The notes beneath the pieces are model-generated. The model was not told the origin of the DNA. It was given only the letters and a program-made list of their open reading frames with translations, and ran no database searches. The translations under genes and the position numbers were made by a program. From Pseudomonas sp. PA15(2017) (GTDB taxonomy: Bacteria; Pseudomonadota; Gammaproteobacteria; Pseudomonadales; Pseudomonadaceae), in assembly GCF_001945395.1 (NCBI RefSeq), contig NZ_MSXV01000044.1, forward strand, positions 138,313 through 202,312: a stretch of 64,000 bases of DNA, read 5' to 3'. Each line of letters starts with the position of its first letter. The stretch's first letter is position 1. This document shows positions 13,725-51,107 of the stretch, one piece after another.

Positions 13725-15799
13725 GCGATCCACGCCTGGCAGAACTGAGCAAGGCTGCGGGCCTGAGCGTCGACTGGATCGATGCCGACGGCAACGCCCA
13801 ATCGGTCAAGCCCGAGCATCAACGCCGCCTACTCGACGCCCTCGGCTACCCCGCCGCTGACGACGAGCAGATAGAAGCCAGCCTGGCGCAGTTGCAGCAC
13901 CGCCAGAACAACCTGGCCCTCGGCCCACTGGTCACCCTCGACCAGCAACAGGCCCTGGATCTGACCCGCTATTTCCCGCCGGGCACGCCCTTCGAGGTCG
14001 AGCTGGAACAGGGCGAACGCCTGGAGGGCCGGCTGGACGACAGCGGCCGCCTGCCGGTGATCGGCACCACCGGTTACCACCAGTTGCGCATTGCGGGCGG
14101 CGAAGTGACTCTCGCCGTGGCGCCTGCCGCCTGCCCGAGCGTCGCCGAATTGGCCAACCGTGCCGACGCCAAGATCTGGGGTCTCAGCGCCCAACTGTAC
14201 TCGCTGCGCCGCCCGGGAGACGGCGGCCTGGGCGATACCCAGGCGCTGGATACCCTGGTGCGCAGCGCGGCGGCCCGCGGCGCCGATGCCGTGGCGATCA
14301 GCCCGATGCACGCCATGTTCAGCGCCAACCTGCACACCTACAGCCCCTATTCGCCCTCCAGCCGCCTGTTCTTCAACGTGTTGCACGCTGCACCGGCCAG
14401 CGTGCTCGGCGAGGCGGCGGTTCAGCAGGCCATTCGCACGTGCGGGCTGGCCGACGAACTGGCGCGCCTGGAAGGCCTGGAGCTGATCGACTGGCCGGGC
14501 GTGGCCAGTGCGCGCATGCAGATCCTGCGGCAGCTGCATGCCGATTTCGCCGTCAGCATCCATCCGCTGCAGGCCGATTTCGAGGCCTTTCGCCAGGCCG
14601 GTGGCGAGGCCCTGCGCCAGCACTGCCGCTTCGAGGCGCTGCGCGGCTTCATGGACCTCAACGGCCTGCCGGTCGACTGGCGGGCCTGGCCCGAGCAGTA
14701 TCGCGACCCGGCCAGTGCGGCGGTCGAACAGTTCTGCGAAGGCCATCAGCACGAGATCGAATTCCACGCCTTCGCCCAATGGCTGGTCGCCCGCTGCCTG
14801 CATGGCGCGCAGGCGACTGCCCGTGAAGCCGGCATGGCGGTCGGCCTGATCGCCGACCTGGCCGTTGGCGCTGACGCCGCCGGCAGCCAGGCCTGGGGCC
14901 GCCAGGCCGAACTGCTGCAGTCGGTCAGCGTCGGCGCACCACCGGACATCCTCAACCGCTCGGGGCAAAACTGGGGCGTGTCGGCGTTTTCTCCCCAGGG
15001 GCTGCAACAGAACGGCTTTCGCGCCTACATCGAAATGCTGCGCGCCAACCTGGCTCACGCCGGTGGCATGCGCATCGACCATGTGATGACCCTGCGCCGT
15101 CTGTGGGTGATCCCCGAGGGCGAGGACTCTTCCGCTGGGGCCTACCTCAACTATCCGTCCCAGGACCTGTTGCGTCTGCTGTGCCTGGAGGCCGAGCGCC
15201 ACCGCGCGCTGATCATCGGCGAAGACCTGGGCACGGTGCCCGACGGCCTGCGCGATGAGCTGGCCGCACGCAACATTCTTGGCATGCGCGTGCTGCTCTT
15301 CGAGCAAAGCGACGGCCGCTTCCATGCGCCGGGCGATTGGCCCCGCGACGCTCTGGCCACCACCACCACCCATGATTTGCCAAGCATCCGCGGCTGGCTC
15401 GCCTCCCGCGACATTCATTGGCGCCAGGCTGCGGGCCACCGCAGCGACGACTACACCAGACAGGATCATCAATTGCGCGCCCAGGAAACCCGAGCACTGC
15501 ACCAGGCCCTGCACGACCACGGCCACGCCACCGCCGAACAAATGGATGACGGCCAGCAACTGGACGCCAGCATCGCCTTCATCGGCAGCACTCCAGCGCC
15601 ACTGGTGCTGCTGCCGCTGGAAGATGCTCTAGCCGCCACCGAGCAGCCCAATCTGCCAGGCCCCGGTGACGAACACCCCAACTGGCGCCGCCGCTGGGCG
15701 GAACCTGCCGATGGCATGCTCGACGCCCCGGCAGTCGCGCATCGCCTGCAGCGCCTGCAGTGGGCCCGCAACCTGGCCGAGGGCCTCGGCCATGACTGA
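13721..15799 (+). CDS. malQ: 4-alpha-glucanotransferase (amylomaltase)
   Basis: A 692-residue GH77 enzyme that transfers alpha-1,4-glucan segments between chains and can release glucose or maltose. The active-site regions are GMRIDHVMTLRRLWVIP (nucleophile), IIGEDLGTVP (acid/base) and TTTTHDLPSIRGW (third aspartate). The long N-terminal extension of about 150 residues is usual for proteobacterial MalQ. It sits between treZ and treY, where it probably adjusts glucan chain length for TreY. Start overlaps treZ by 4 bp; the end overlaps treY by 8 bp. Confidence 0.95.
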   Translation: MSDPRLAELSKAAGLSVDWIDADGNAQSVKPEHQRRLLDALGYPAADDEQIEASLAQLQHRQNNLALGPLVTLDQQQALDLTRYFPPGTPFEVELEQGERLEGRLDDSGRLPVIGTTGYHQLRIAGGEVTLAVAPAACPSVAELANRADAKIWGLSAQLYSLRRPGDGGLGDTQALDTLVRSAAARGADAVAISPMHAMFSANLHTYSPYSPSSRLFFNVLHAAPASVLGEAAVQQAIRTCGLADELARLEGLELIDWPGVASARMQILRQLHADFAVSIHPLQADFEAFRQAGGEALRQHCRFEALRGFMDLNGLPVDWRAWPEQYRDPASAAVEQFCEGHQHEIEFHAFAQWLVARCLHGAQATAREAGMAVGLIADLAVGADAAGSQAWGRQAELLQSVSVGAPPDILNRSGQNWGVSAFSPQGLQQNGFRAYIEMLRANLAHAGGMRIDHVMTLRRLWVIPEGEDSSAGAYLNYPSQDLLRLLCLEAERHRALIIGEDLGTVPDGLRDELAARNILGMRVLLFEQSDGRFHAPGDWPRDALATTTTHDLPSIRGWLASRDIHWRQAAGHRSDDYTRQDHQLRAQETRALHQALHDHGHATAEQMDDGQQLDASIAFIGSTPAPLVLLPLEDALAATEQPNLPGPGDEHPNWRRRWAEPADGMLDAPAVAHRLQRLQWARNLAEGLGHD

Positions 15800-18596
15800 G
15801 TTACGCGCCAGCGTTCGCCTGCAGTTTCACAAGGGCTTCACCCTTGACGATGCCGTGCCTCTGGTCGACTACTTCGCGCGCCTGGGCATCAGCCATATCT
15901 ATGCCTCGCCGCTGCTCACCGCGCGGCCCGGGTCCATGCACGGCTATGACGTGGTCGACCCGACTCGCGTCAACCCCGAACTGGGCGGTGAAGCGGCCCT
16001 CGAACGCCTGATCGCCGCCCTGCGCGGCAAAGACATGGGGCTGATTCTGGATATCGTCTCCAACCACATGGCAGTGGGCGGCGATGCCAACCCCTGGTGG
16101 CTGGACGTGCTCGAATGGGGCTCCAGCAGCCCTTACGCGAAGTTCTTCGACATCCACTGGCAGTCCCACGACCCGCTGCTACGCGGCCAGTTGCTGGTGC
16201 CGTTCCTGCGCAGCGACTACGGCGAAGTGCTGGCAGCCGGCGAAATCGAACTGCACTTCGATGGCGAACGCGGCCTGCTTTACGCCAAGCATTACGATCA
16301 CCGCTTTCCGCTCAATCCGCCGACCTACGGCGACGTACTGCAGCATAGCGGCCACCCTGAACTGCAAGCACTGGGCAAGCGCTTCGCCGCGCTGGACGAC
16401 GGTGCCGACGGCCAGCGCCAGGCCCGTGCGCTGTTTCGCGAGCTGGTTGCCCTGGCCAGCAAGGCCGGGCATGCCGTGGAGCATGCCCTGGCCAGCCTGC
16501 GGCCCAGCGAGGGGCAGAATGTCGAAGCGCTGCACCAGTTGCTCGAGCGCCAGCACTATCGCCTGGCCAGCTGGCGCACCGCGGCGGACGACATCAACTG
16601 GCGGCGCTTTTTCGATATCAACGAACTGGGCGGCCTCAAGGTCGAACGCCACGACGTGTTCGAAGCGACCCACGGGAAAATTTTCGAGCTGATCGAGAAA
16701 GGCCTGGTCGATGGCCTGCGTATCGACCACGTCGACGGCCTCGCCAACCCTCGCGCTTACTGCCGCAAGCTGCGCCGCCGCGTGGAACGGCTGCTGCCGA
16801 AACGCCCGGCGAATCTGCAGGGCGGTCGTTTCCCGATCTATGTCGAGAAGATTCTCGGCGAGGGTGAACAGCTACCCCGCGACTGGGGTGTGGACGGCAC
16901 CACCGGCTACGAATTCATGAACCAGGTGTCGCTGTTGCAGCACGCCCCTGAAGGCGAACCGCTGCTGGTAAAGCTGTGGAGTGAAACCAGCGGCCGTGAA
17001 GCCGACTTCATGGCCGAGGTACGCGAGGCTCGCCAGTTGGTGCTGACCACCTCCCTGGCCGGCGACCTGGAAGCGCTGGCCCAGGGCCTGCTGCTCGTTG
17101 CCCGTGATGACATCGCCACCCGCGACCTGACCCTGGGTGCCATCCGCCGCGCGCTACTGGAGCTGATCACTCATTTTTCGGTGTACCGCACCTACGTGTC
17201 GGCCGCCGGGCGTAGCGCCAATGACCAGGCGGTATTCGACCAGGCCCTGGAAGGCGCCCGCACGACGCTGGCCGAAGGTGATTGGCCGCTGCTCGAACAT
17301 CTGGACAGTTGGCTCGGCGGCCAGGCGCTGTCGCAGTTGCCACCGAGCCCACAGCGCAAGCGCCGGGCGAAGATGATCGAACGTTTTCAGCAACTCACTT
17401 CTCCGGCCGCCGCCAAGGCCGTGGAAGACACCGCCTGCTACCGCAGTGCGGTGCTGCTGTCGCGTAACGACGTGGGCTTCGACCCACAACAGTTCAGCGC
17501 ACCGGTGCAGGCCTTTCATGAGGCTTGCGTCGAGCGGGCCCGGTATTTCCCAGCCAACCTGCTGACCACCGCGACCCACGACCACAAGCGCGGCGAAGAC
17601 ACCCGCGCGCGCCTGACCGTGCTCAGCGAGCGCGCCGAATGGTTCGCCGAGCGCTGCCAGCACTGGCGCGAACGGGCTGCGCCGCTGCGCGCTGAGTTGG
17701 ATGACGGCCTGGCGCCCTCGCCTGGTGACGAGCTGATGCTGCTGCAGATCCTGCTTGCCTGCTGGCCGCTGGATCTGCACGCCGACGATACCGAGGGCCT
17801 GCAGAGCCTCACCGAGCGCCTCGGCGCCTGGCAGGAAAAAGCCGTGCGCGAGGCCAAGCTGCGCAGCACCTGGAGCAACCCCAACGAACGCTACGAGCAG
17901 GCTTGCCGACACTACCTGCAGGCACTGCTCGGCAGTGATGAGGGTCGCGAACTGCGCGCCGAGATCTGCCGCACCGCTGCCGAAATCGCGCCTGCCGGCG
18001 CCCTCAACAGCCTGGCCCAGAGCCTGCTGCGCATGAGCGTGCCCGGGGTGCCCGATCTGTACCAGGGCTGCGAATTCTGGGATTTCTCCCTGGTCGACCC
18101 GGACAACCGCCGCCCGGTGGATTTCGCCGCGCGCAGCCAGGCCCTGACCGGTGGCCAAGTGCTCGCCCAGGCACTCGAACACTGGCACGACGGCCAGGTG
18201 AAGCAGGCGCTGATCGCCGCCACCCTGCAGGCTCGCCAGCATCACGCGCAGCTGTTCGCCAAAGGCGATTACCAGCCGCTCGAGGTCGAGGGTGAGCATG
18301 CCGAGCGGGTCGTCGCCTTTCTGCGCAGCCATGGCGAGGACCACGCCATCGTCGTGGTGCCGCGCCTGAGCGCCAAACTGCTGGGCGACAGCGCCATGCC
18401 GCTGATCGCCGCCGACCAATGGGGCGACACCCGTATCGCCCTGCCCGCCGTGCTCGCCGACAGGCCCCTGCGCAGCGCGTTCGACCCTGCCCACCCACTG
18501 CCCACCAGCGGTCACCTCGCGCTATGCGATGTGCTGCGCGATATCCCCGTCAATCTGCTGATCGCCACTAGTCAATCTCAGGAGTCACACCCATGA
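15792..18596 (+). CDS. treY: Malto-oligosyltrehalose synthase
   Basis: A 934-residue GH13 enzyme that converts the reducing-end alpha-1,4 bond of a glucan into the alpha,alpha-1,1 bond of trehalose. The opening LRASVRLQFHKGFTLDDAV, the barrel motif LDIVSNHMAVGG, the nucleophile region GLRIDHVDGLANP, the YVEKILGEGE acid/base region and the C-terminal TTATHDHKRGEDTRARL block are all typical TreY. The ATG at 15792 overlaps malQ by 8 bp and gives the normal N-terminus. Works directly with TreZ. Confidence 0.95.
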   Translation: MTELRASVRLQFHKGFTLDDAVPLVDYFARLGISHIYASPLLTARPGSMHGYDVVDPTRVNPELGGEAALERLIAALRGKDMGLILDIVSNHMAVGGDANPWWLDVLEWGSSSPYAKFFDIHWQSHDPLLRGQLLVPFLRSDYGEVLAAGEIELHFDGERGLLYAKHYDHRFPLNPPTYGDVLQHSGHPELQALGKRFAALDDGADGQRQARALFRELVALASKAGHAVEHALASLRPSEGQNVEALHQLLERQHYRLASWRTAADDINWRRFFDINELGGLKVERHDVFEATHGKIFELIEKGLVDGLRIDHVDGLANPRAYCRKLRRRVERLLPKRPANLQGGRFPIYVEKILGEGEQLPRDWGVDGTTGYEFMNQVSLLQHAPEGEPLLVKLWSETSGREADFMAEVREARQLVLTTSLAGDLEALAQGLLLVARDDIATRDLTLGAIRRALLELITHFSVYRTYVSAAGRSANDQAVFDQALEGARTTLAEGDWPLLEHLDSWLGGQALSQLPPSPQRKRRAKMIERFQQLTSPAAAKAVEDTACYRSAVLLSRNDVGFDPQQFSAPVQAFHEACVERARYFPANLLTTATHDHKRGEDTRARLTVLSERAEWFAERCQHWRERAAPLRAELDDGLAPSPGDELMLLQILLACWPLDLHADDTEGLQSLTERLGAWQEKAVREAKLRSTWSNPNERYEQACRHYLQALLGSDEGRELRAEICRTAAEIAPAGALNSLAQSLLRMSVPGVPDLYQGCEFWDFSLVDPDNRRPVDFAARSQALTGGQVLAQALEHWHDGQVKQALIAATLQARQHHAQLFAKGDYQPLEVEGEHAERVVAFLRSHGEDHAIVVVPRLSAKLLGDSAMPLIAADQWGDTRIALPAVLADRPLRSAFDPAHPLPTSGHLALCDVLRDIPVNLLIATSQSQESHP

Positions 18597-18925
18597 GCGC
18601 AAAAGAAGACCGCATCCGTGAGTTCGCCTACCAGATCTGGGAATCCGAAGGGAAACCCCACGGTCAGGCCAAACGCCACTGGGAAATGGCCACCAAGCTG
18701 GTCGACGCCGAGCAGTCGCCTGGCAAGACCGCGCCCAAGCGCGTGAGCAAGCCCAAGGCCGCCGCTGGCGAGCCGGCCCCTGCCGCACCGATCAAACCCC
18801 GCACCAGCAAGGCAGCGCCCAAGGCCGACGCCGAGAAACCTGCCCTGCTCAAACCGGCCAAGGCCCCCGCCAAGGCCAAACCCAGCACCACCGCCAAGCC
18901 TGCCGCCAAGAAGCCCAAGGCCTGA
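18593..18925 (+). CDS. DUF2934 domain protein
   Basis: A 110-residue protein with an N-terminal DUF2934 motif (EDRIREFAYQIWESEGKPHG, then QAKRHWEMA) in the first 40 residues and a low-complexity tail rich in Ala, Lys and Pro that resembles histone-H1-like or DNA-binding tails. Function unknown. Its start overlaps the treY stop by 4 bp and glgX follows after 18 bp, so it is part of the trehalose/glycogen operon. DUF2934 genes are common in alpha-glucan clusters, suggesting an accessory role. No catalytic motif is visible. Confidence 0.88.
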   Translation: MSAKEDRIREFAYQIWESEGKPHGQAKRHWEMATKLVDAEQSPGKTAPKRVSKPKAAAGEPAPAAPIKPRTSKAAPKADAEKPALLKPAKAPAKAKPSTTAKPAAKKPKA

Positions 18926-18943
18926 TACCAGGAGCCACCCAGA

Positions 18944-21076
18944 ATGAGTCAACCACGCTCGCGTATAACCGAAGGTCAGCCCTTTCCGTTGGGGTCGACC
19001 TGGGATGGTTTGGGCGTCAACTTCGCGCTCTTCTCGGCTCACGCCACCAAGGTCGAACTGTGCATCTTCGACCCTGATGGCCTGGAAGAAATCGAGCGCA
19101 TCGAATTGCCGGAGTACACCGACGAGATCTGGCATGGCTACCTGCCCGATGCCCATCCAGGGTTGATCTACGGCTACCGCGTGTACGGCCCCTACGAGCC
19201 GGAAGCGGGTCACCGTTTCAACCACAACAAGCTGCTGATCGACCCTTACGCCAAGCAGCTGGTGGGCGAGTTGAAGTGGTCCGAAGCGCTGTTCGGCTAC
19301 GAGATCGGTCACCCGGACGGCGACCTCAGTTTCGACGAGCGCGACAGCGCGCCTTTCGTGCCCAAGTGCAAGGTCATCGACCCGGCCTACACCTGGGGCA
19401 AGCATCGCAATCATCGCGTGGATTGGGACAAGACGGTGTTCTACGAAGCCCACCTGCGCGGCCTGACCATGCGTCATCCGTCGGTGGCCGAAGACAAGCG
19501 CGGCACCTTCGCCGGCCTGATGAACGCCGACGTGATCAAGCACATCCGCAAGCTCGGCGTCTCGTCGGTCGAACTGCTGCCGGTGCATGCCTTCGTCAAC
19601 GACCAGCACCTGCTGGAAAAGGGCATGAACAACTACTGGGGCTACAACAGCATCGGCTTCTTCGCCCCGCACCCCCGCTACCTGGCCAGCGGCCACATCA
19701 ACGAATTCAAGGAAGTGGCCGCGCACCTGCACGATGCCGGCCTGGAGCTGATTCTCGACGTGGTCTACAACCACACCGCCGAAGGCAACGAGCTGGGCCC
19801 GACCCTGTCCATGCGCGGCATCGACAACGCCAGCTACTACCGGCTGATGCCTGATGACAAACGCTACTACATTAATGACTCGGGCACCGGCAACACCCTG
19901 GATCTGAGCCACCCGTGCGTGTTGCAGATGGTCACCGACTCGCTGCGCTACTGGGCCACCGAGATGGGCGTGGACGGCTTCCGCTTCGACCTGGCGACCA
20001 TTCTCGCTCGCCACCACGATGGCTACGACGAACGCCACAGCTTCCTGGTCGCTTGTCGTCAGGACCCGGTGCTGAGCAAGGTCAAGCTGATCGCCGAACC
20101 GTGGGACTGCGGCCCTGGCGGCTATCAGGTCGGCGGTTTCCCGCCGGGCTGGGCGGAGTGGAACGACAAGTTCCGCGACAACGTGCGCAGCTTCTGGAAG
20201 GGCGACGAAGGCCAGTTGGCCGAACTGGCCAGCCGTCTGACCGCCTCGGGCGACCTGTACAACCAGCGTGGTCGCCGACCGTTCTCGTCGGTGAACTTCA
20301 TTACCGCCCACGACGGTTTCACCCTCAATGACCTTGTCTCCTACAACGACAAGCACAACGAGGACAACGACGAGAACAACCAGGACGGCAGCAACAACAA
20401 CATGTCCTGGAACCACGGCGTCGAAGGCCCGACCGACGACGAGGCCATCAACGACCTGCGCCTGCGACAGATGCGCAACTTCATGGCCACGCTGATCCTC
20501 GCCCAGGGTACGCCAATGCTGGTGGCCGGCGACGAGTTCGCACGCACCCAGCACGGCAACAACAACGCCTATTGCCAGGACAGCGAGATCGGCTGGATCA
20601 ACTGGGACCTGAGCGAGCGTGGCAAGCAGTTGCAGGCGTTCGTCACCCGGGTGATCAAGCTGCGCATGAACTACCCGATCCTGCGTCGTGGCCGCTTCTT
20701 CGTCGGCGCCTTCAACGAGGAGCTGGGCATCAAGGACGTCACCTGGCTGGCGCCCAGTGGCGAGGAGATGAACGAGGACAACTGGCACGACCCCCATGCC
20801 CGCTGCATGGGCATGCTGCTCGATGGTCGCGCCCAGCCGACCGGCATCCGCCGCAGCGGTGCCGACGCAACGCTGCTGATGGTGGTCAACTCGCACCACG
20901 ATGTGGTCAATTTCCGCCTGCCGGAAGTTGCCCAGGGCAGCCATTGGACGTGCATGCTCGACACCAACCGCACCGACGAGCCGGAAGAAGACGAAGTGTT
21001 CCAGTTCGGTGACGAATTCATCGTTACCCACCGCTCGCTGGTGCTGTTCGAGCTGCAAAAGGAAAAAGTGGCATGA
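18944..21076 (+). CDS. glgX: Glycogen debranching enzyme
   Basis: A 710-residue GH13 isoamylase-type enzyme hydrolysing alpha-1,6 branches of glycogen, mainly after GlgP has shortened the outer chains. An N-terminal CBM48-like domain (PLGSTWDGLGVNFALFSAHA) precedes the barrel. Active-site regions: LDVVYNHTAEGNELGPTLS, GFRFDLATIL (nucleophile), LIAEPWDCGPGGYQVG (acid/base) and ITAHDGFTL (third aspartate). A GGAGCCACC leader lies just before the ATG. The stop overlaps the acyl-CoA dehydrogenase-like gene by 4 bp, linking glycogen breakdown to the uncharacterised four-gene block. Confidence 0.95.
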   Translation: MSQPRSRITEGQPFPLGSTWDGLGVNFALFSAHATKVELCIFDPDGLEEIERIELPEYTDEIWHGYLPDAHPGLIYGYRVYGPYEPEAGHRFNHNKLLIDPYAKQLVGELKWSEALFGYEIGHPDGDLSFDERDSAPFVPKCKVIDPAYTWGKHRNHRVDWDKTVFYEAHLRGLTMRHPSVAEDKRGTFAGLMNADVIKHIRKLGVSSVELLPVHAFVNDQHLLEKGMNNYWGYNSIGFFAPHPRYLASGHINEFKEVAAHLHDAGLELILDVVYNHTAEGNELGPTLSMRGIDNASYYRLMPDDKRYYINDSGTGNTLDLSHPCVLQMVTDSLRYWATEMGVDGFRFDLATILARHHDGYDERHSFLVACRQDPVLSKVKLIAEPWDCGPGGYQVGGFPPGWAEWNDKFRDNVRSFWKGDEGQLAELASRLTASGDLYNQRGRRPFSSVNFITAHDGFTLNDLVSYNDKHNEDNDENNQDGSNNNMSWNHGVEGPTDDEAINDLRLRQMRNFMATLILAQGTPMLVAGDEFARTQHGNNNAYCQDSEIGWINWDLSERGKQLQAFVTRVIKLRMNYPILRRGRFFVGAFNEELGIKDVTWLAPSGEEMNEDNWHDPHARCMGMLLDGRAQPTGIRRSGADATLLMVVNSHHDVVNFRLPEVAQGSHWTCMLDTNRTDEPEEDEVFQFGDEFIVTHRSLVLFELQKEKVA

Positions 21077-22107
21077 CCGGGGGCGGCACCCGTTCGCTGG
21101 AACGCCTCGGCGCCCTGCTGAACGAGTGGCCGCACCCGACCCTGCATCACCCCGAGGCCCTCGGCCACGCCCTGCAAGGGCTGTGCGCCGCGGGCCTCGA
21201 CCAATTACCGCAACCCGGCGGTGGCCACACCCTGCAACGTTGGCAGGCGTTGGCCACGGTCGCCGCATGGGACCTGAGCCTGTGCAAACTCTATGAAGGT
21301 CACACCGACGCCCTGGCGATCCTCGCGCATTTCGATGCGCCTATACCCGACCAGACCACCTGGGGCATGTGGGCCGCTGAGCCGCCCCAGGCCCGCGTGA
21401 CCCTGACTGCCGAGCAGCACCACGGCAACGTGCGCCTGAATGGCCGCAAGGCCTGGTGCTCGGGCGCCGGGGTGCTCAGCCACGGCCTGCTCACCGCATG
21501 GAATACCGACGGTGAACAGCAGTTGGTGGCCGTCGCCCTGGGACAGCCCGGCGTGCAGGTCACCAACGACGGTTGGCAGGCCGTGGGCATGGCCGCCACC
21601 GGAAGCGTCGAGATCTGCTTCGACGAGGCCCGTGGCCAGTTGATCGGTCCGCCGGGCGGCTACCTGGTCAGGCCCGGTTTCTGGCAAGGCGGCGCGGGCA
21701 TCGCAGCCTGCTGGCACGGTGCCGCGGGCCGCCTGGGCGAAGCGCTGCGCCGGCACTGCAGCGAACGCGACGAGCCCCACGCCCTTGCCCACCTCGGCCA
21801 TGTGGACTGCGCCCTCATCGCCGCTGCCAGCGCCCTGCGCGACTGCGCCGCCTGGATCGACGCCAACCCGGCAGCCGACGCCGAACTACCGGTACGCCGC
21901 GTGCGCGCCATCGTCGAGCACCGCGCGACCGAGGTGATCGAGCACGTTGGCCGTGCCCTTGGCGCCGCCCCCTATTGCCGTGACGCCGCGCTGGCGAGGC
22001 TGCTGGCCGACCTGCCGGTGTTTCTGCGCCAGAGCCATGCCGAGCGCGACCTGGCGGCCCTCGGTGTGCTCGCAGCCCGCCAACTACAAGAGAGCTGGAT
22101 GCTATGA
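21073..22107 (+). CDS. Acyl-CoA dehydrogenase-like flavoprotein
   Basis: A 344-residue protein resembling acyl-CoA dehydrogenases but shorter than usual (about 380). Recognisable features are the mid-domain strand VRLNGRKAWCSGAGVLSHGL, corresponding to the family's G.K.W.T.A segment, the VAVALGQPGVQV and GMAATGSVEICFDEA strands, and a helical C-terminus. The N-terminal helical domain looks reduced and I cannot place the catalytic glutamate with confidence, so it may bind FAD without classical acyl-CoA oxidation. First gene of four linked by 4-bp overlaps (this gene, PIG-L, methyltransferase, glycosyltransferase). Substrate unknown. Confidence 0.75.
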   Translation: MTGGGTRSLERLGALLNEWPHPTLHHPEALGHALQGLCAAGLDQLPQPGGGHTLQRWQALATVAAWDLSLCKLYEGHTDALAILAHFDAPIPDQTTWGMWAAEPPQARVTLTAEQHHGNVRLNGRKAWCSGAGVLSHGLLTAWNTDGEQQLVAVALGQPGVQVTNDGWQAVGMAATGSVEICFDEARGQLIGPPGGYLVRPGFWQGGAGIAACWHGAAGRLGEALRRHCSERDEPHALAHLGHVDCALIAAASALRDCAAWIDANPAADAELPVRRVRAIVEHRATEVIEHVGRALGAAPYCRDAALARLLADLPVFLRQSHAERDLAALGVLAARQLQESWML

Positions 22108-22862
22108 ACACCAATCCGATTCAGGGCCAGGGCACCTCGCCGCAAGCCTGGAGGGCCTCCCGGCGCCTGGCCCAGGTGGCCGATATCACCTGCACGCAGC
22201 TGGTGCCCGAAGGCTGTCGGGCGGTGATCATAGCCCCCCATCCGGACGATGAAATCCTCGGCAGCGGCGGCCTGCTGCAACTGCTGGCCCAGGCGCAGCG
22301 GCAAATCCTGCTGATCTCGGTCACCGATGGCGCCGCCAGCCACCCTGGTTCGAACCACTGGACACCGCAACGCCTGAGCATCGTGCGCCCCCAGGAAAGT
22401 GCCGATGCCCTCAAACGCCTCGGCCTGCCGCTCAATCAGGTGCAATGGGTGCATGGCGGCTTTCCCGATACTGGCGTGGGCGCTTGCGAAGTGCAGCTGC
22501 GCGAATTTCTCAAGACCTACCTGCAACCCAGCGACGTGGTATTCGCCACCTGGCGCGAGGACGGCCATGCCGACCACGAGGCCGTTGGCCGCGCGGCCCT
22601 GATGGCCGCACTGGAATGCGGCGCCCGTGCCCACGAGATTCCGATCTGGGCCTGGCACTGGGCGAGCCCCGAGGACCCGCGCATTCCGTGGGAGCGCGCG
22701 CGCAAGGTGCAGCTCGACAAGTGGGCCCAGGCGCGCAAGCGCCACGCCATCCAGGCCTTCGCCAGCCAGCTCTACGACGACCCCGATAACGGCCACGAGG
22801 CAGTGCTTTCCGGCACGGCGGTGGAGCGTCTGCAGCAGCCTTTCGAGGTGGTGTTTCTATGA
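22104..22862 (+). CDS. PIG-L family N-deacetylase
   Basis: A 252-residue LmbE/PIG-L metal-dependent deacetylase. The zinc-binding motif is PHPDDE (residues 45-50), followed by the usual SVTDGAASHPGS loop, and a third metal-ligand histidine in WREDGHADHEAVG. Family members remove N-acetyl groups from GlcNAc linked to lipids, inositol or small molecules. No signal peptide or membrane helix is visible, so it acts in the cytoplasm. It is coupled by 4-bp overlaps to the genes on both sides. It could deacetylate the product of the glycosyltransferase encoded downstream; this is inference. Confidence 0.88.
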   Translation: MNTNPIQGQGTSPQAWRASRRLAQVADITCTQLVPEGCRAVIIAPHPDDEILGSGGLLQLLAQAQRQILLISVTDGAASHPGSNHWTPQRLSIVRPQESADALKRLGLPLNQVQWVHGGFPDTGVGACEVQLREFLKTYLQPSDVVFATWREDGHADHEAVGRAALMAALECGARAHEIPIWAWHWASPEDPRIPWERARKVQLDKWAQARKRHAIQAFASQLYDDPDNGHEAVLSGTAVERLQQPFEVVFL

Positions 22863-23485
22863 GCGTCGCCGACAATTACTTCGAGAACCTCTACCGCAGC
22901 AGCGAAGACCCCTGGTCCTTTCGCGAGCGCTGGTACGAGCAGCGCAAGCGCAACCTGACCCTCGCCACCCTGCCGCGTAGCCACTACGGCAGCATTTTCG
23001 AGCCGGGCTGCGCCAACGGCGAGCTCAGCGTACGCCTGGCCGAACGCTGCACCCAGCTGCTGTGTAGCGACACCTCGGCGATCGCCCTGGAGCTGGCGCG
23101 CAACCGCCTAGCTCACCGCAGTAACGTGCGCCTGCTGCAAACCCGCCTGCCGGAACAATGGCCGGCCGGGCGTTTCGACCTGATCGTGCTCAGCGAGCTG
23201 TGCTACTACCTCGACGCGCAGGATCTGGATCGCCTGATCGACTGCGCCCGCGCCGCCCTCAACACTGGCGGCAACTTGCTGGCCTGCCACTGGCGCTGGC
23301 CGATCGACGAATGCCCGTTGAGCGGCGATCAGGTTCATCAGCGTCTGCACGAACGCCTCGGTCTGCCGCGCCTCCTGCGTCATGAAGATGCCGACCTGCT
23401 GCTCGAAGTGTGGGGCACCGAAGCCATGTCGGTCGCCCAGCGCGAGGGCCTGGCGCCGGAAACCACACAGGAGCCGCTGGCGTGA
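22859..23485 (+). CDS. NodS-like SAM-dependent methyltransferase
   Basis: A 208-residue class I methyltransferase of the NodS type. SAM-binding motif I is FEPGCANGELS (about residues 47-57) and the opening YFENLYRSSEDPWSFRERWYE matches the NodS/SAM methyltransferase N-terminus. LIVLSELCYYLDAQDL is motif IV. NodS N-methylates the free amine left on the sugar backbone of Nod factors after N-deacetylation, so the placement next to a PIG-L deacetylase is suggestive. It overlaps PIG-L and the glycosyltransferase by 4 bp each. The true substrate is unknown. Confidence 0.85.
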   Translation: MSVADNYFENLYRSSEDPWSFRERWYEQRKRNLTLATLPRSHYGSIFEPGCANGELSVRLAERCTQLLCSDTSAIALELARNRLAHRSNVRLLQTRLPEQWPAGRFDLIVLSELCYYLDAQDLDRLIDCARAALNTGGNLLACHWRWPIDECPLSGDQVHQRLHERLGLPRLLRHEDADLLLEVWGTEAMSVAQREGLAPETTQEPLA

Positions 23486-24126
23486 TCGGCGTCGTCATTC
23501 CCGCCCATAATGAGGAACAGAGCCTGGACGCCTGCCTCGACGCCCTGCTCCAAGCTGCCGCTCACCCCGCGCTCGACCAGCCGGTACGCATTCTGGTGGT
23601 GCTCGACAGCTGCAGCGACGGCTCGGCCAACCTGGTCGCCAATTACCCGGTCGCAAGCCTCGCACTGCAGGCGCGCAACGTCGGCCAGGCGCGTGCCGCC
23701 GGCGTGGCCTGGCAACTCGAGCGCGGCGCGGGGTGGATCGCCTGCTCCGACGCTGACAGCCGGGTCGCCGCCGACTGGCTGGTGCGCCAGCGCGAATTGC
23801 AGGCCGACATGGTCTGCGGCACCGTGGAAGTCGCTGAATGGGGCGAGCTGGATAGCGGCGTACAGCGCCGTTACCTGAGCGCTTACCAGGATCGCGACGG
23901 GCATCGGCACATCCACGGCGCCAATCTGTCGTTCAGCGCAGCCGCCTACCACCGCGCCGGGGGGTTCCAGAACATCGTCGTCGACGAGGACGTGCAGTTG
24001 GTCGCCGCTTTCGAGCGCATCGGCGCGCACATCGCCTGGAGCTCGCTGCCGCGCGTGTATACCAGTGCCCGTCTGGATTGCCGCGCCCGCGGCGGCTTCG
24101 GCGATTACCTGCGCTCGCTGCTCTGA
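23482..24126 (+). CDS. Family 2 glycosyltransferase, soluble
   Basis: A 214-residue GT2 (GT-A fold) enzyme. The N-terminus IGVVIPAHNEEQSLDACLDA is the nucleotide-sugar-binding strand, the DxD equivalent is SDADSR near residue 93, and the acceptor region HIHGANLSFSAAAYHRAGGF is followed by VDEDVQL. There is no membrane segment. The start is a GTG at 23482 that overlaps the methyltransferase stop (GTGA) and places the first strand exactly at the N-terminus. Last gene of the coupled run that begins at glgA. Donor and acceptor unknown. Confidence 0.85.
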   Translation: MIGVVIPAHNEEQSLDACLDALLQAAAHPALDQPVRILVVLDSCSDGSANLVANYPVASLALQARNVGQARAAGVAWQLERGAGWIACSDADSRVAADWLVRQRELQADMVCGTVEVAEWGELDSGVQRRYLSAYQDRDGHRHIHGANLSFSAAAYHRAGGFQNIVVDEDVQLVAAFERIGAHIAWSSLPRVYTSARLDCRARGGFGDYLRSLL

Positions 24127-24255
24127 ACCCGCCGCACGGCGACCAAAAACCTTGAACCGCCCACTCGCCGTTCCAGTCGGAATTTAACGATGCCCCCGCG
24201 CCTGCTGCGCCCGGGCCCCTCGCTGAACCACGGCGACCATCGCCAGGAGGCCAGC

Positions 24256-24669
24256 ATGAAAGTCAGCGATATCATGACTCGCGGCGTACAGACCATCACG
24301 CCCAGCCAAACCATCCACGAAGCCGCCGCCATGATGGCGCGCATCGATTGCGGTGCGCTGCTCGTCAATCAGGACGACCGCCTGGTCGGCATGATCACCG
24401 ACCGCGACATCACCGTGCGCGCCGTGGCCACCGGGATGCCGGGCGAAACGCCGATCTCCGAGGTGATGAGCGGCGAGATCCGCTACTGCTTCGAAGACGA
24501 GGATGTGCGCCAGGTGGCCCGCAACATGGGCGAAAACCAGCTGCGGCGCCTGCCAGTGCTCGACCGCGACAAGCGCCTGGTCGGCGTGGTGTCGCTGGGC
24601 AACTTGGCCCTGAGCGACGACCCGCAGGCCAGCGCCCAGTTATTGCGTCGCGTGACCGGCGCGCACTGA
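24256..24669 (+). CDS. CBS-domain pair protein
   Basis: A 137-residue protein made of two CBS domains (VSDIMTRGVQTITPSQTIHE to TDRDITVRAVA, then ISEVMSGEIRYCFEDEDVRQ to LVGVVSLGNLAL). Such stand-alone pairs bind adenine nucleotides and can act as energy or redox sensors. The ATG at 24256 has an AGGAGG seven bases upstream; an earlier in-frame ATG at 24190 has none. It begins 129 bp after the glycosyltransferase gene and may be a separate transcript. No other domain is attached and no partner can be named. Confidence 0.88.
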   Translation: MKVSDIMTRGVQTITPSQTIHEAAAMMARIDCGALLVNQDDRLVGMITDRDITVRAVATGMPGETPISEVMSGEIRYCFEDEDVRQVARNMGENQLRRLPVLDRDKRLVGVVSLGNLALSDDPQASAQLLRRVTGAH

Positions 24670-24696
24670 TCGATGAGCAGACCAACGCCGCAACCT

Positions 24697-24747
24697 AGGG
24701 TCTGTTCCCGTTTCAGCGCGAGCGTGCGTGAAACGGGAACAGACCCT
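24697..24747. repeat. Perfect 19-bp inverted repeat
   Basis: Arms AGGGTCTGTTCCCGTTTCA (24697-24715) and its exact reverse complement (24729-24747) enclose a 13-base loop. There is no T-run on either side, so it is not a standard rho-independent terminator. It separates the CBS gene from the DUF72 operon and differs in sequence from the GTGGGAGCG-type hairpins. Confidence 0.85.
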
Positions 24748-24797
24748 GGCGCCTGCGGGCAATCGCGCGTTGGCCTGCCATACGCGGATGAGCGACG

Positions 24798-25709
24798 GTG
24801 AAGGGCATCCATATCGGCATATCGGGCTGGCGCTATGCGCCTTGGCGCGGCGACTTCTACCCCGAGGGGTTGAAGCAGCGCGAGGAACTGGCGTTCGCTT
24901 CCCGGGCAGTGAGCAGCATCGAGATAAATGGTTCGTTCTACGCTCTGCAAACGCCCGAGCGTTATGCTGGCTGGGCCGACGAGACGCCGGACGGTTTTTG
25001 CTTCGCGGTCAAGGCGCCGCGCTATATCACCCACATCCGCCGCCTCCAGGACGTGGCTACGCCAGTCGCCAATTTCTTCGCCTCGGGGCTACTGCAGCTG
25101 GGCGACAAGCTCGGGCCGATCCTGTGGCAGTTCCCGCCGAGCATGGCCTTCGACGAGCAGCGTTTCGCCGACTTTCTTGCCTTGCTGCCTCAGGACACCG
25201 AGCAGGCCCTACGCAGTGCCGGGAAAGCCGACCGTCTGCAGGACGGCAGCCTGGACGTGCTCCACCACCAGAAACTGCGCCACGCCGTGGAGATTCGCCA
25301 CCAAAGCTTTTGCGACCCGGCGTTCATCAAGCTCCTGCGTAAATACAAGGTGGCACTGGTGTTCGCCGACAGTGCCGGCAAATGGCCTTACGCCGAAGAC
25401 CTGACGAGCGACTTCGTGTACCTGCGCCTGCACGGCAACAAGAAGCTCTACCAAAGCGGCTACGACGAACAGGCGATCGACCATTGGCACCAGCGCATCA
25501 TCACCTGGAGCCGTGGCCAGCAACCCGGCGATGCACAGCTGATCGACACCCACAAGCCGCGTGCCCGGGCATCACGGGACCTGTACTGCTATTTCGATAA
25601 TGACCTCAAGGTACGTGCGCCCTATGACGCCCACGCACTCTTACAGAAGTTCGACCTGGCCAAGGCGTTGCCCAACGTCCCCGGCCAGTCGCCAGGAGTG
25701 AGCCCATGA
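24798..25709 (+). CDS. DUF72 (YecE-like) TIM-barrel protein
   Basis: A 303-residue DUF72 protein. Family features are the opening [19 protein letters not shown], the [15 protein letters not shown] block, [22 protein letters not shown] and the C-terminal [18 protein letters not shown]. The fold is a TIM barrel; the activity is not established. The start is a GTG at 24798 chosen because it places the first strand at the N-terminus; the ribosome site is weak. It overlaps the next gene by 4 bp (ATGA), so it belongs to the downstream four-gene operon of envelope-related functions. Confidence 0.88.
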
Positions 25710-26485
25710 CCACCCACCAACCGGCCCCTACGGAGCTGGCCAACGCGGTGCATACGTTGAAGATTCTCACGGTGAACACCCACAAGGGGTTCACCGCGCT
25801 GAATCGACGCTTCATCCTTCCCGAGCTGCGGGATGCGGTTCGCACCCTGTCGGCCGACATGGTGTTTCTGCAGGAAGTGCACGGCACCCACGAACATCAC
25901 GCCAAGCGCTACGAGAATTGGCCGCCGACGCCGCAATACGAATTTCTTGCCGACAGCATGTGGCCGCAGTTCGCCTATGGCCGCAACGCCGTGTACCCCC
26001 ACGGCGACCATGGCAATGCCCTGCTTTCCAAATTCCCGATCCTGCGCCACGAGAACCTCGACATTTCCATCGGCACCCAAGAGCAGCGCGGTTTGCTGCA
26101 CTCGGTGCTGGACGTTCCGGGCCACGCCGAAGTGCACGCCATTTGCGTGCATCTGGGCCTGCGCGAAATCCATCGCAAGCAGCAGCTGGGTCTGCTCTGC
26201 AAGGTGCTCGACCGCCTGCCGTCCGATGCCCCGGTGATCGTCGCCGGTGATTTCAACGACTGGCGCCAGCGCGCCGATGGTCTGCTGGCCGCCAGCGGCC
26301 TGAAGGAGGCATTCGTCAACGAGTACGGCAAGCCGGCCAGGAGCTTCCCCGCGCGCTGGCCGCTGCTGTGCCTCGATCGCATCTATGTACGCAACGCGAC
26401 CACTCACAACCCGCAGGTGCTCTCGACCCGTCCCTGGTCGCACCTGTCGGATCATGCACCGTTGGCTGTGGAGATACGGCTATGA
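25706..26485 (+). CDS. Endonuclease/exonuclease/phosphatase family protein (YbhP-like)
   Basis: A 259-residue EEP-superfamily hydrolase. Catalytic features are the TVNTHKGF strand, the metal-binding glutamate in VFLQEVHG, the HLGLREIHR segment, the GDFNDW motif, LDRIYVRN and the C-terminal SDHAPL with its catalytic histidine. It is the likely counterpart of E. coli ybhP, which lies next to clsB and ybhN in the same way. Members can be nucleases or phospho-/phospholipid phosphatases; with a cardiolipin synthase beside it a lipid substrate is attractive but unproven. Confidence 0.88.
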
Positions 26486-27714
26486 AGTACGACTGGCGTG
26501 ATGGCAACCAGGTCGATTTGCTGATCAACGGCGAGGAGTTCTATCCCGCCGTGTTCGAATCCATCCGCAACGCCCGGCGGGAGGTGCTGCTGGAGACCTT
26601 CATCATCTTCGAAGACAAGGTCGGCATGGAGTTGCAGCAGGCGCTGATCAGCGCGGCCCGCAACGGCGCCAGCGTGGAGATCACCGTGGACGGCTACGGC
26701 ACCGCGGACCTGTCCACCGAGTACGTTGCCGCACTGACCGCCGCCGGCGTACGCGTGCATATGTTCGATCCCGGCAAGCGCCTGCTGGGCATGCGTACCA
26801 ACCTGTTCCGCCGCCTGCATCGCAAGATCGTGGTGATCGACAGCGAGATCGCCTACATCGGCGGCATCAACTTCGGTGCCGACCATCTGGGCGACTACGG
26901 CCCCATGGCCAAGCAGGATTACGCCGTGCGCGTGCGCGGCCCGATCGTTGCCGACGTGCACACCGCCGCCGAGCGTCTGCTCGAAGCACGCGACGACCGT
27001 GAAGTAGCCAAGCGCCGGGTCAACCAGCCCGGCCAGCACCGGCATGCCGGCAACAGTCGGCTGTTGATGACCATCCGCGACAACGCCGATGACAGCAATA
27101 CCATCGAACAGCATTACCTGGACGCCATACGCAAGGCCCAGCACCGGCTGATCGTCGCCAACGCCTATTTCTTTCCCGGTTATCGCCTGCTGCGCGAGCT
27201 GCGCAACGCCGCCCGCCGTGGCGTCAAGGTAACGCTGATCCTCCAGGGCATGCCGGACATGCCACTGGTGCGCCTGTGCTCGCGGCTGACCTACAACTAC
27301 CTGCTGCGCGACGGCGTGACCATCTACGAATATTGCCAACGGCCGCTGCACGGCAAGGTCGCCCTGGCCGACCACGAATGGTGCACCGTGGGTTCGAGCA
27401 ACCTCGACCCCCTGAGCCTGTCGCTCAACCTGGAAGCCAACGTGGTCATCCGTGATCCGGCGCTCAACCGTCGCCTGCACGAGCACCTCTCCGAGCTCGC
27501 CGAATCGAGCTGCAAATCGGTGCCGCTCAAGCGTGTGATGCGCGGCTACTGGTGGCGCGCGCCGCTGATCTTTCTGTGCTTCCACTTCCTGCGCCATTTT
27601 CCAGCCATCGCTGGCTGGTTCCCGGCCCATTCACCGCGGCTCAAGCTGCTCAAACCCGATATCGAAGCGCCGCAGTGCGGCACCTTGCAGGTCGACCAGG
27701 AGAAAGTCTCGTGA
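26482..27714 (+). CDS. clsB: Cardiolipin synthase B, phospholipase D family
   Basis: A 410-residue PLD-superfamily enzyme with two HKD motifs: [16 protein letters not shown] near residue 113 and [20 protein letters not shown] near residue 290. ClsB-type enzymes form cardiolipin, and with other donors phosphatidylglycerol, at the inner membrane. No N-terminal membrane helices are visible, as in ClsB rather than ClsA; a hydrophobic segment near the C-terminus ([16 protein letters not shown]) may anchor it. The ATG overlaps the upstream gene by 4 bp and the stop overlaps the ybhN-like gene by 4 bp. Confidence 0.9.
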
Positions 27715-28700
27715 GCAAACCCGACGACAAGCAAGGCAAACCGGCGTGGCGTTGGGCCAAGCGTCTGCTGACCCTGTGCTTCTTCATCCTGGTGCCGGTG
27801 CTGCTGTTCATGCTGGTCAAGAATCTCGACTGGCAGGAAGTCAGCCAGGCGCTACGCAGCTACAGCACTGGCACCCTGCTCGCCGCCATCGGCGTGGCGG
27901 CGCTGAGCTACGGGGTGTACTCGAGCTTTGACCTGATCGGCCGTGCCTACACGCAGCACGGCCTGCCCACCCGGCAGGTGCTGCCGCTGACCTTCGTGTG
28001 CTACGCCTTCACCCTCAACCTGAGTTCCTGGGTCGGCGGTGTGGCGCTGCGCTATCGCCTGTACTCGCGTTTGGGTCTCAAGGTCTCGACCATCACCCGT
28101 GTGCTGAGCATGAGCCTGATCACCAACTGGCTGGGCTATATCCTGCTGGCCGGTGTGCTGTTCACCTTTGGCCTGCTCAAGCTGCCCGAGGGCTGGGCCA
28201 TCGGCGCCACGGGCCTGCGCATCATCGGCCTGGCATTGCTTGCGGTGGGCATCGGCTATCTGCTGGCCTGCCAGTTCTCCAAGCGCCGCAGCTGGACGAT
28301 CCGCGGCCACGAATTGAACCTGCCGTCGCTGCCCATGGCCCTGCTGCAGGCCGGCCTCGGTGCGTTGAACTGGTCGCTGATGGCGCTGATCATCTACCTG
28401 CTGCTGCCCGAGGAAGCCTTCTACCCGACCATTCTCGGTATCCTGATGATCAGCAGCATCGCCGGGGTGATCACCCACATTCCCGCCGGCCTGGGGGTGA
28501 TCGAGGCAGTGTTCATCGCCATGCTGCAGCACGAGATGTCCAAGGGCAGCATCGTCGCCGCACTGATCGGCTACCGGGCGATCTACTTCCTGCTGCCCCT
28601 GGCGGTGGCCTGCGTGGTTTACCTGGTGTTGGAAAAACGCGCCAAGAAGTTGCGCCAGAATGCCGACCATGACAACAGCGAAGAGCCGCGCCCTGCCTGA
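27711..28700 (+). CDS. YbhN-type lysylphosphatidylglycerol synthase transmembrane protein
   Basis: A 329-residue inner-membrane protein with about eight hydrophobic segments, of the UPF0104/LPG_synthase_TM family (the membrane part of MprF-like proteins without the aminoacyl-transfer domain). Typical blocks are LSSWVGGVALRYRLYSRLGL and ITHIPAGLGVIEAVFIAML. Bacterial members are linked to lipid or undecaprenyl-carrier movement; the exact role is open. The GTG start at 27711 overlaps the clsB stop. Together with the EEP protein and ClsB it reproduces the ybhP-ybhO-ybhN grouping of E. coli. Confidence 0.87.
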   Translation: MSKPDDKQGKPAWRWAKRLLTLCFFILVPVLLFMLVKNLDWQEVSQALRSYSTGTLLAAIGVAALSYGVYSSFDLIGRAYTQHGLPTRQVLPLTFVCYAFTLNLSSWVGGVALRYRLYSRLGLKVSTITRVLSMSLITNWLGYILLAGVLFTFGLLKLPEGWAIGATGLRIIGLALLAVGIGYLLACQFSKRRSWTIRGHELNLPSLPMALLQAGLGALNWSLMALIIYLLLPEEAFYPTILGILMISSIAGVITHIPAGLGVIEAVFIAMLQHEMSKGSIVAALIGYRAIYFLLPLAVACVVYLVLEKRAKKLRQNADHDNSEEPRPA

Positions 28701-40401: not shown

Positions 40402-40437
40402 GTGCGCCTCCTCGGCGAGCAGGAACCAGTAAATGCC
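40402..40437 (-). pseudogene. Residual 3' codons of the TreS catalytic domain
   Basis: Read in the mak frame, the 12 codons before the mak ATG are GIYWFLLAEEAH, which resembles the closing strand of the TreS GH13 C-terminal domain (pattern GFYWFxL). An in-frame TGA lies further upstream, about 70 bp before the ATG, and no more TreS sequence is found up to the glgE stop. This looks like the right boundary of an internal treS deletion. Twelve codons are little evidence, so this is an inference supported by gene order. Confidence 0.55.
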
Positions 40438-40534
40438 AGAAGACGAACGAGTGGACAGGCCATCGAGTGGCCCTGTCCGCAGCGGTCATCGGGAAGGGTG
40501 AAGTGCCAGGCTCGGCGTGCCATCAACCGATTCC

Positions 40535-42559
<2,025 letters not shown>

Positions 42560-42835: not shown

Positions 42836-43006
42836 AAATTGGCTGCTACAAGGCAGAAGCGGCCATCGATGCGGTACCTGTGGGAGCGGGCCATGCCCGC
42901 GAAAAATCATGGGCATGGCCCGTTCCCACAAGATAGGGGAACGGCTGCTAACGCCACCCTGCAGTCAATCCGCCGACATCGAGCCGCAAGATCGTGAACA
43001 GGCTTT
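42836..43006. repeat. Composite REP-like element between glgE and ligD
   Basis: Begins near GGCTGCTACAAGGCAGAAGC (42841), carries the hairpin CTGTGGGAGCGGGCCATGC ... CGTTCCCACA (42878-42932) and ends in GATCGTGAACAGGCTTT, the terminal repeat shared with other copies, which touches the ligD stop codon. The rest of the gap 42560-42840 contains the short glgE leader and nothing else that I recognise. Confidence 0.75.
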
Positions 43007-45564: not shown

Positions 45565-45575
45565 GGCCGCTCACC

Positions 45576-48968: not shown

Positions 48969-51107
<2,139 letters not shown>

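Follow-up and report, generated by a model that had tools for sequence, protein, structure and literature searches.

The backbone of the Nod factors is assembled by NodC, NodB and NodS, and the thiols mycothiol and bacillithiol are made by glycosyl transfer followed by PIG-L deacetylation (MshA/B and BshA/B). Enzymes of related kinds are encoded by a block of four genes lying directly 3' of glgX in Pseudomonas sp. PA15(2017). The block was analysed within a stretch of 64,000 nucleotides (contig NZ_MSXV01000044.1, positions 138,313 to 202,312; hereafter the window), in which its four open reading frames fill the plus strand from 21073 to 24126. They code for a flavoprotein of the acyl-CoA dehydrogenase (ACAD) fold, a PIG-L N-deacetylase, a NodS-like methyltransferase and a small glycosyltransferase of family 2 (GT2). 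As in Nod-factor synthesis, a GT2, a sugar N-deacetylase and a NodS-type N-methyltransferase come together, and relatives of the block use or fuse polysaccharide-deacetylase (NodB-type) domains. The block differs from that system in the small size of its GT2 (214 amino acids), in the PIG-L type of its deacetylase, in having an extra flavoprotein, and in its methyltransferase, which reached 52.8 of the 300 bits required by the NodS equivalog model NF041650; a NodA acyltransferase is absent from the four genes, the only part of the genome searched for it. The glycosyltransferase and PIG-L deacetylase recall the mycothiol and bacillithiol systems, whereas the N-methyltransferase and the flavoprotein do not, and the block has a GT2 instead of a GT4 enzyme such as MshA or BshA. 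The ACAD fold is common to the flavoprotein and to the group D flavin monooxygenases and amino-sugar N-oxygenases (DszC, MsuC, SfnB, KijD3, DnmZ), among which are its best profile matches. The best solved relative of the PIG-L profile is the archaeal diacetylchitobiose deacetylase Dac (2e-21), yet it is distant in sequence.

We propose, with a probability of about 0.5, that the block is a self-contained biosynthetic operon for a small N-methylated amino-sugar conjugate of the general-stress (osmotic or desiccation) repertoire. The GT2 would transfer an N-acetylamino sugar, most likely N-acetylglucosamine (GlcNAc) donated by UDP-GlcNAc, to a small soluble acceptor. The PIG-L protein would then strip the acetyl group, the NodS-like enzyme would methylate the freed amine and the flavoprotein would oxidise the product, flavin-dependent oxygenation or oxidation being likelier than acyl-CoA dehydrogenation. 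Cells that dry out or encounter salt would produce this conjugate together with trehalose (or sucrose), catalase and end-joining repair. The proposal draws on the order and overlaps of the genes, on their co-occurrence and their linkage to stress genes, on residues conserved in the deacetylase and the GT2, and on gene fusions; the donor sugar, the acceptor, the reaction order, the oxygenation and the identity of the product, as well as horizontal transfer and a stress role in this organism, are what we infer.

Table 1. Features of the block and of the adjoining glgX gene (positions in the window)
Feature	Position	Strand	Support
glgX, context outside the conserved cassette	18944..21076	+	TIGR02100 1076.7 bits (cut-off 640.9); stop overlaps block start by 4 bp
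ACAD-fold flavoprotein, 344 aa, lacking the usual catalytic acid; possibly a flavin oxygenase/oxidase	21073..22107	+	PF02770 34.6 bits
Codon of Gln320 of the flavoprotein	22030..22032	+	Invariant in 37/37 relatives; one residue before the usual dehydrogenase base position
PIG-L (CE14-type) N-deacetylase, 252 aa	22104..22862	+	PF02585 86.7 bits (cut-off 28.2)
HPDDE motif of PIG-L, residues 46-50	22239..22253	+	H46, D48, D49, E50 invariant in 32/32
NodS-like S-adenosylmethionine (SAM) methyltransferase, 208 aa	22859..23485	+	PF05401 (43.9 bits) and Methyltransf_12 (47.4 bits)
Small GT2, 214 aa, GTG start	23482..24126	+	PF00535 (Glycos_transf_2) 52.5 bits

As stated in the original prediction, which had been made from the letters of the window, the genes follow glgX and each is linked to the preceding one by an exact 4-bp overlap. 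From the glgX/flavoprotein junction to the methyltransferase/GT2 junction these overlaps read ATGA, ATGA, ATGA and GTGA. A consensus scan of 20900-24400 gave no promoter or terminator; the numbers expected by chance were 0.3 and 1.8, and the result carries no weight. Among 99 Pseudomonadaceae genomes the first protein had an orthologue in 25 (E < 1e-70), the next scores being 31 bits or lower. Co-occurrence was determined in a sample of 398 genomes of the phylum, with the window proteins as queries and E limits of 1e-15 (methyltransferase, 1e-12). The flavoprotein was found in 29 genomes, the methyltransferase in 41, the GT2 in 21, the PIG-L protein in 29, and all four in 19. The methyltransferase was present in all 29 flavoprotein genomes, and the flavoprotein in 21/21 GT2 genomes and in 25/29 PIG-L genomes; G054 and G339 retain the GT2 although it is located on another contig. 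Eight of the 12 genomes with a methyltransferase and no flavoprotein match were inspected. Four (G299, G415, G430, G475) carry a diverged flavoprotein and PIG-L protein beside the methyltransferase, two (G132, G165) encode GT2-methyltransferase-polysaccharide-deacetylase proteins, in G148 a frame truncated by the contig end contains methyltransferase and deacetylase, and G414 has the methyltransferase alone within 20 kb. Similar long frames occur in G140, G217, G263 and G363, whose loci were outside the eight inspected.

In 31 of 45 loci the order flavoprotein-PIG-L-methyltransferase-GT2 was found on one strand, and in three the GT2 came first, followed by the other three genes. Overlaps of 4 bp were counted in 21/39 flavoprotein/PIG-L, 32/39 PIG-L/methyltransferase and 26/37 methyltransferase/GT2 same-strand pairs, adjacent or not, with starts chosen near the homologous start of the window protein; the 45 loci include the window and close relatives, so that the counts are not independent. 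A scan of named genomes with one protein as query yielded four Pseudomonas loci, the distant relatives coming from other genomes and from named plasmid records. All four genes were present on plasmids of Acinetobacter, Legionella lytica and Kitasatospora, and on a Cupriavidus plasmid, where the PIG-L gene lies on the opposite strand at a distance of about 3 kb. Partial, fused or substituted sets were found in Deinococcus, Rubrobacter and Nostoc. The four genes are largely one unit and do not occur independently in most genomes; the cassette is conserved within Pseudomonadota and has relatives in Deinococcus, Actinomycetota and Nostoc. The operon is patchily spread and has probably moved between genomes. 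The retention of a coherent gene set in genera from Pseudomonas to Kitasatospora and of related sets in Deinococcus and Nostoc, frequently in the vicinity of trehalose, catalase or end-joining genes, would point to an unrecognised stress-tolerance metabolite.

The deacetylase belongs to the PIG-L/CE14 (carbohydrate esterase family 14) enzymes. Like HPDDE (Table 1), the distal DxHxDH motif (D153, H155, D157 and H158) was invariant in 32/32 relatives; the two motifs presumably form the metal site. After Dac, BshB1 and MshB were the next solved relatives of its profile. In the profile search with the methyltransferase, chain 4isc, an uncharacterised protein named 'Methyltransferase', scored 2e-73, NodS (3ofj) 8e-32 and the next match 3.5e-14, making NodS the nearest among named methyltransferases. 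As for the GT2, the DAD motif (D90-D92) and E169-D170 were invariant in 27/27 relatives. The structure search returned many GT2 enzymes at like scores, with no close characterised relative and no assignment of donor or acceptor; the model is weak at residues 115-123, 126-146 and 190-214. None of its 13 NCBIfam matches was a NodC model.

Gene fusions tie the deacetylase to the methyltransferase. PIG-L and methyltransferase are joined in one protein at locus L177, whereas in Rubrobacter a polysaccharide deacetylase gene replaces PIG-L beside the flavoprotein and methyltransferase genes. Proteins of about 1000 amino acids in which a GT2 is fused to a NodS-like methyltransferase and to a polysaccharide deacetylase were found at L178 and L184, and, truncated by the contig end, at L183; they may carry out Nod-factor-like chemistry in a single polypeptide. 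The fusions and the substitution in Rubrobacter suggest that deacetylation is coupled to methylation. Since two deacetylase families of unrelated fold accompany one methyltransferase type, the methyl acceptor is probably the amine freed by deacetylation. The logic of glycosyltransferase, N-deacetylase and N-methyltransferase put forward in the original prediction thus gained support, and the block would represent a compact four-enzyme set with Nod-factor-like amino-sugar chemistry outside symbiosis. The fused frames at L178 (8379-11384) and L184 (8947-12003, minus strand) are not accompanied by the flavoprotein.

The same chemistry could serve the cell surface, the operon attaching an N-methylated amino sugar to a glycolipid or polysaccharide (lipopolysaccharide, capsule or membrane lipid) and so shielding the envelope during drying. 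TarP and WrtF, GT2 enzymes acting on surface polymers, were among the Foldseek matches of the GT2; GT4 and GT28-like enzymes are added at L034 and at loci of another class (one that the search tables list as different from the window's), the GT4 of L034 resembling N-acetylglucosaminyl phosphatidylglycerol synthase (60.4 bits, cut-off 480), and the Deinococcus gobiensis locus adds glf. The core four proteins are small, and no flippase, polymerase or acyltransferase is a constant neighbour in the gene tables, which identify a minority of the neighbours. We regard surface decoration as possible and rather doubtful. Extra glycosyltransferase genes stand beside the block at L034 (12155-15189) and at L080-L083, in one genome of the Pseudomonadaceae, in one from the same order and in others of another class; their types (Glyco_transf_7C, GT28-like, GT4) were scanned in L034 only.

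Linkage to stress genes supports the proposed role of the conjugate. The glgX gene adjoins the block in 10/25 Pseudomonadaceae loci. In the eight loci of a second genus the block follows Ku-LigD (five inspected over 20 kb, all alike), and glgX lies 2.6-19 kb away in 8/8. Overall, glgX was present in 24/25 block genomes of the family as compared to 30/74 others, and the sole exception, G012, has otsBA beside the block. Beyond the family, otsBA was found near the block at L072 (Pfam-confirmed) and L078, otsA at L071, treYZ-glgA at L076, KatE at L075, L080 and L081, Ku/LigD at L081, and sucrose-phosphate synthase/phosphatase at L080. The plasmid loci carry katE with otsA/otsB (Acinetobacter), glgE, a maltokinase gene and katE (Cupriavidus), or otsB and a glycoside hydrolase family 65 (GH65) gene (Legionella lytica). 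In the Acinetobacter ursingii plasmid L090 (1-20885) genes for a Y-family polymerase, a catalase, a DUF421 protein and a haem-oxygenase-like iron protein, the block, a major facilitator superfamily transporter gene and otsA/otsB occur together, a stretch that resembles a plasmid-borne stress island.

A marker gene (trehalose/alpha-glucan, otsAB, KatE, LigD or Ku) was present in 23/40 block windows and in 0/40 random 20-kb windows (two per genome in 20 of the 40 genomes, on the block contig and at least 50 kb from the block), and in 12/25 loci of an evenly drawn phylum sample; because the loci share descent, the evidence is weaker than the Fisher values (2.6e-9 and 1.3e-6) suggest. The block windows comprised 20 of the 25 Pseudomonadaceae loci (those of G000, G047, G075, G079 and G083 left out) and 20 further phylum-sample loci; five were shorter than 20 kb (L068, 8.6 kb; L076, 14.4; L078, 15.0; L081, 17.5; L022, 19.0). 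The phylum count omits G000, G079 (close to G071), G243 and G259 of the 29 genomes, and in one of its 12 matches, L079, only part of LigD is matched, at the edge of the block window. The marker query called treS matches the maltokinase (TreS C-terminal) model only.

Published expression data are consistent with a stress setting. In Acinetobacter baumannii, ACICU_02432-02435 are labelled as one operon encoding a glycosyltransferase, a SAM methyltransferase, an LmbE protein and an acyl-CoA dehydrogenase-related protein, and were down 31-45-fold and 42-62-fold in two colistin-dependent mutants, in which otsA was down 27- and 50-fold, otsB 12- and 35-fold and a catalase 22- and 31-fold (PMC5660220); section 8 of that paper states no function for the four genes. 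They appear to be the same operon as the block, because names and order agree, A. baumannii has the four-gene block (L091), and four like kinds of gene are placed beside blsA in another account (PMC6240043). In Pseudomonas fluorescens, treY and glgX are reported as RpoS-dependent and fall in an rpoS mutant; a text search of that paper gave no match for PIG-L, LmbE, acyl-CoA dehydrogenase or methyltransferase (PMC6372562). In the open-access full-text literature no paper was found that assigns a function to the block, and no known pathway that accounts for it. The coupling to glycogen and trehalose metabolism suggested in the original prediction held in so far as the trehalose/alpha-glucan link recurs and otsAB is co-regulated in the A. 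baumannii table; the emphasis on glgX, adjacent in fewer than half of the family's loci, was too narrow, as elsewhere LigD/Ku, otsBA, katE, sucrose-phosphate synthase or none of these is found. The best reading at hand is an N-methylated amino-sugar compound produced in parallel with trehalose metabolism, broadened to a general stress setting.

The first gene had been called acyl-CoA dehydrogenase-like, which is probably not its function. It has the dehydrogenase fold: PF02770 (Acyl-CoA_dh_M) was barely over its cut-off of 33.3 bits, and the best 50 VIA-align rows gave Z 20.7-22.5 to ACAD-superfamily chains. Dehydrogenases carry their catalytic Glu either within the RD...EG segment of the C-terminal part or at the isovaleryl-type site. 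The former position is occupied by S, P, H, T, C, A or N, and by E/D in 0/37 relatives; the latter aligns to residue 206 and holds an acid in 1/37. Paralogues of the same genome have E at the usual site (L154) or, in the isovaleryl-like L153, A there and E at the second site. The profile search placed DszC (4.2e-19), MsuC (2.4e-15) and KijD3 (4e-13) before isobutyryl-CoA dehydrogenase (1e-11), making the DszC/SfnB/MsuC-type flavin monooxygenases the closest in sequence. In Foldseek, KijD3 and MsuC occupied ranks 1-3 by a small margin, ranks 1, 2 and 5 being KijD3 and DnmZ. Because the usual site lacks an acid in all 37 relatives and the profile is nearest to flavin monooxygenases, a dehydrogenase role is doubted and an oxidase or oxygenase is favoured, judging from sequence comparison, while fold comparison favours neither; the name 'acyl-CoA dehydrogenase' given to these proteins is questionable.

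The protein also differs from the SfnB/DszC-like paralogues. It has the C-S/T-G-A motif in common with the SfnB/DszC-like paralogues of the same genome, which have His (LHDP segment) where Gln320 is invariant in the block proteins; the SfnB NCBIfam model gave 37.4 of 430.9 bits. In the tree the block proteins were split from ten same-genome paralogues, the SfnB/DszC-like ones included (support 0.99), the nearest paralogue group being unsupported (0.49). Viral contigs contained no relative recognisable with search patterns built from one protein. In Deinococcus the ACAD-fold protein (L092, 4193-6532; L093, 6899-9247) bears an extra N-terminal region of about 400 amino acids; that of L092 matched nothing in the PDB at 0.01, nor any Pfam or NCBIfam model within the limits applied, and contains NE and ETG segments such as are typical of clan-A glycosidases.

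Several observations weigh against the proposed stress-metabolite operon. The unit is not strict: at 1e-15, eight of the 29 flavoprotein genomes lack a GT2 match and four a PIG-L match, a Methylobacterium plasmid (within 10 kb) and G049 have the flavoprotein without the other three, and a Paraburkholderia plasmid has only methyltransferase and GT2. No sugar-nucleotide gene, transporter or regulator is constant beside the block, most neighbours being without identification. The markers were picked after the neighbourhoods had been seen, the origin of the control windows described above counts on the same side, 13/25 phylum-sample loci have none of the listed markers, and L091 has no stress marker near the block. 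Co-expression in Acinetobacter depends on one paper, and its genes were equated with the block by gene name and order. For the flavoprotein, an acid at residue 324 in 35/37 relatives and at 326 in 31/37, just past the usual base position, could act as a displaced base; chains named only 'Acyl-CoA dehydrogenase type 2 domain protein' (3e-15) fall between MsuC and KijD3 in the profile search; Foldseek rank 4 is a named acyl-CoA dehydrogenase (2dvl), with close E-values; among the best 50 VIA-align rows dehydrogenases and monooxygenases are level, with dehydrogenases on top (KijD3 and DnmZ were outside these rows, which excludes nothing); and the model is moderate (pLDDT 65.8, C-terminus under 50).

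Proximity to trehalose genes might reflect shared membership of stress islands, the operon making an unrelated metabolite (a signal or antibiotic) with no osmotic role. The variation of the markers by lineage, some being repair or catalase rather than solute genes, and the loci without any marker agree with this. Repeated siting beside treYZ/glgX, otsBA, glgE, GH65 and sucrose-phosphate synthase, and the co-expression with otsAB reported for A. baumannii, argue against it, and we consider it unlikely. Still less credit can be given to a genuine acyl-CoA or acyl-ACP dehydrogenase desaturating the acyl chain of an amino-sugar lipid (a Nod-factor-like lipo-oligosaccharide), although the PF02770 match, the VIA-align scores of dehydrogenases (Z up to 22.5) and the displaced acid would suit it: both catalytic sites and the profile preference for monooxygenases stand against it, and none of the four genes codes for an N-acyltransferase. 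Synthesis of a low-molecular-weight thiol in the mycothiol/bacillithiol fashion, suggested by the glycosyltransferase and PIG-L pair, by BshB1 as best NCBIfam match of the deacetylase and by catalase neighbours at some loci, is very improbable, given the low scores (BshB1 45.3 bits, cut-off 182.5; MshB 14.5, cut-off 224.35), the unexpected methyltransferase and flavoprotein, and the absence of a cysteine-adding enzyme (BshC/MshC) from the four genes, the rest of the genome lying outside this search.

If the small N-methylated amino-sugar conjugate is made as proposed, a more specific version can be formulated, which is speculative and to which we assign a low probability: the flavoprotein would be an amino-sugar N-oxygenase and the product an N-methylated, N-oxygenated aminosugar on a non-reducing disaccharide (trehalose, or sucrose where this is the solute). 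The repeated siting by TreYZ, OtsAB, OtsB with GH65, and sucrose-phosphate synthase would then reflect the acceptor, and the product would be a previously undescribed class of stress metabolite, occurring in several phyla including drying- and radiation-tolerant genera.

Phage defence was rejected as a role: PADLOC gave only a match to the methyltransferase (mad2, 56 bits), taken as a generic SAM-domain match. Upstream of the block, the run glgA-treZ-malQ-treY-small ORF-glgX extends over 10450-21076, glgX being last. Genes for LigD and Ku (43006-46400) and for catalase HPII (48969-51107) are also present in the window, as are glgB, a gene for maltokinase and glgE (together 36566-42559). The names glgA, treZ, treY, glgX, glgB, maltokinase, LigD, Ku and catalase are supported by NCBIfam models; glgE was named by 57% identity to an annotated Cupriavidus gene, and malQ is our own label. 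The 544-residue protein encoded beside glgE (38767-40401, minus strand) matched only the maltokinase (TreS C-terminal) model, the isomerase part of TreS not having been searched for; a fused treS/pep2 gene is reported for P. aeruginosa. Downstream of the block, 24190-28700 codes for CBS-domain, DUF72, Exo_endo_phos, PLD-like and LPG_synthase_TM proteins, a set wholly or partly kept beside the block in L022, L025, L086 and L087. The first block protein is 91% identical to its counterpart in P. straminea (L086), a species to which the source of the window is close. Some genomes of the window's genus encode another PIG-L protein after the block (L026, 7020-7787; L028, near 12974; L031, near 12362), and in G030, where the other three proteins had no match at the limits used, a similar PIG-L gene is located 0.3 kb from glgX.

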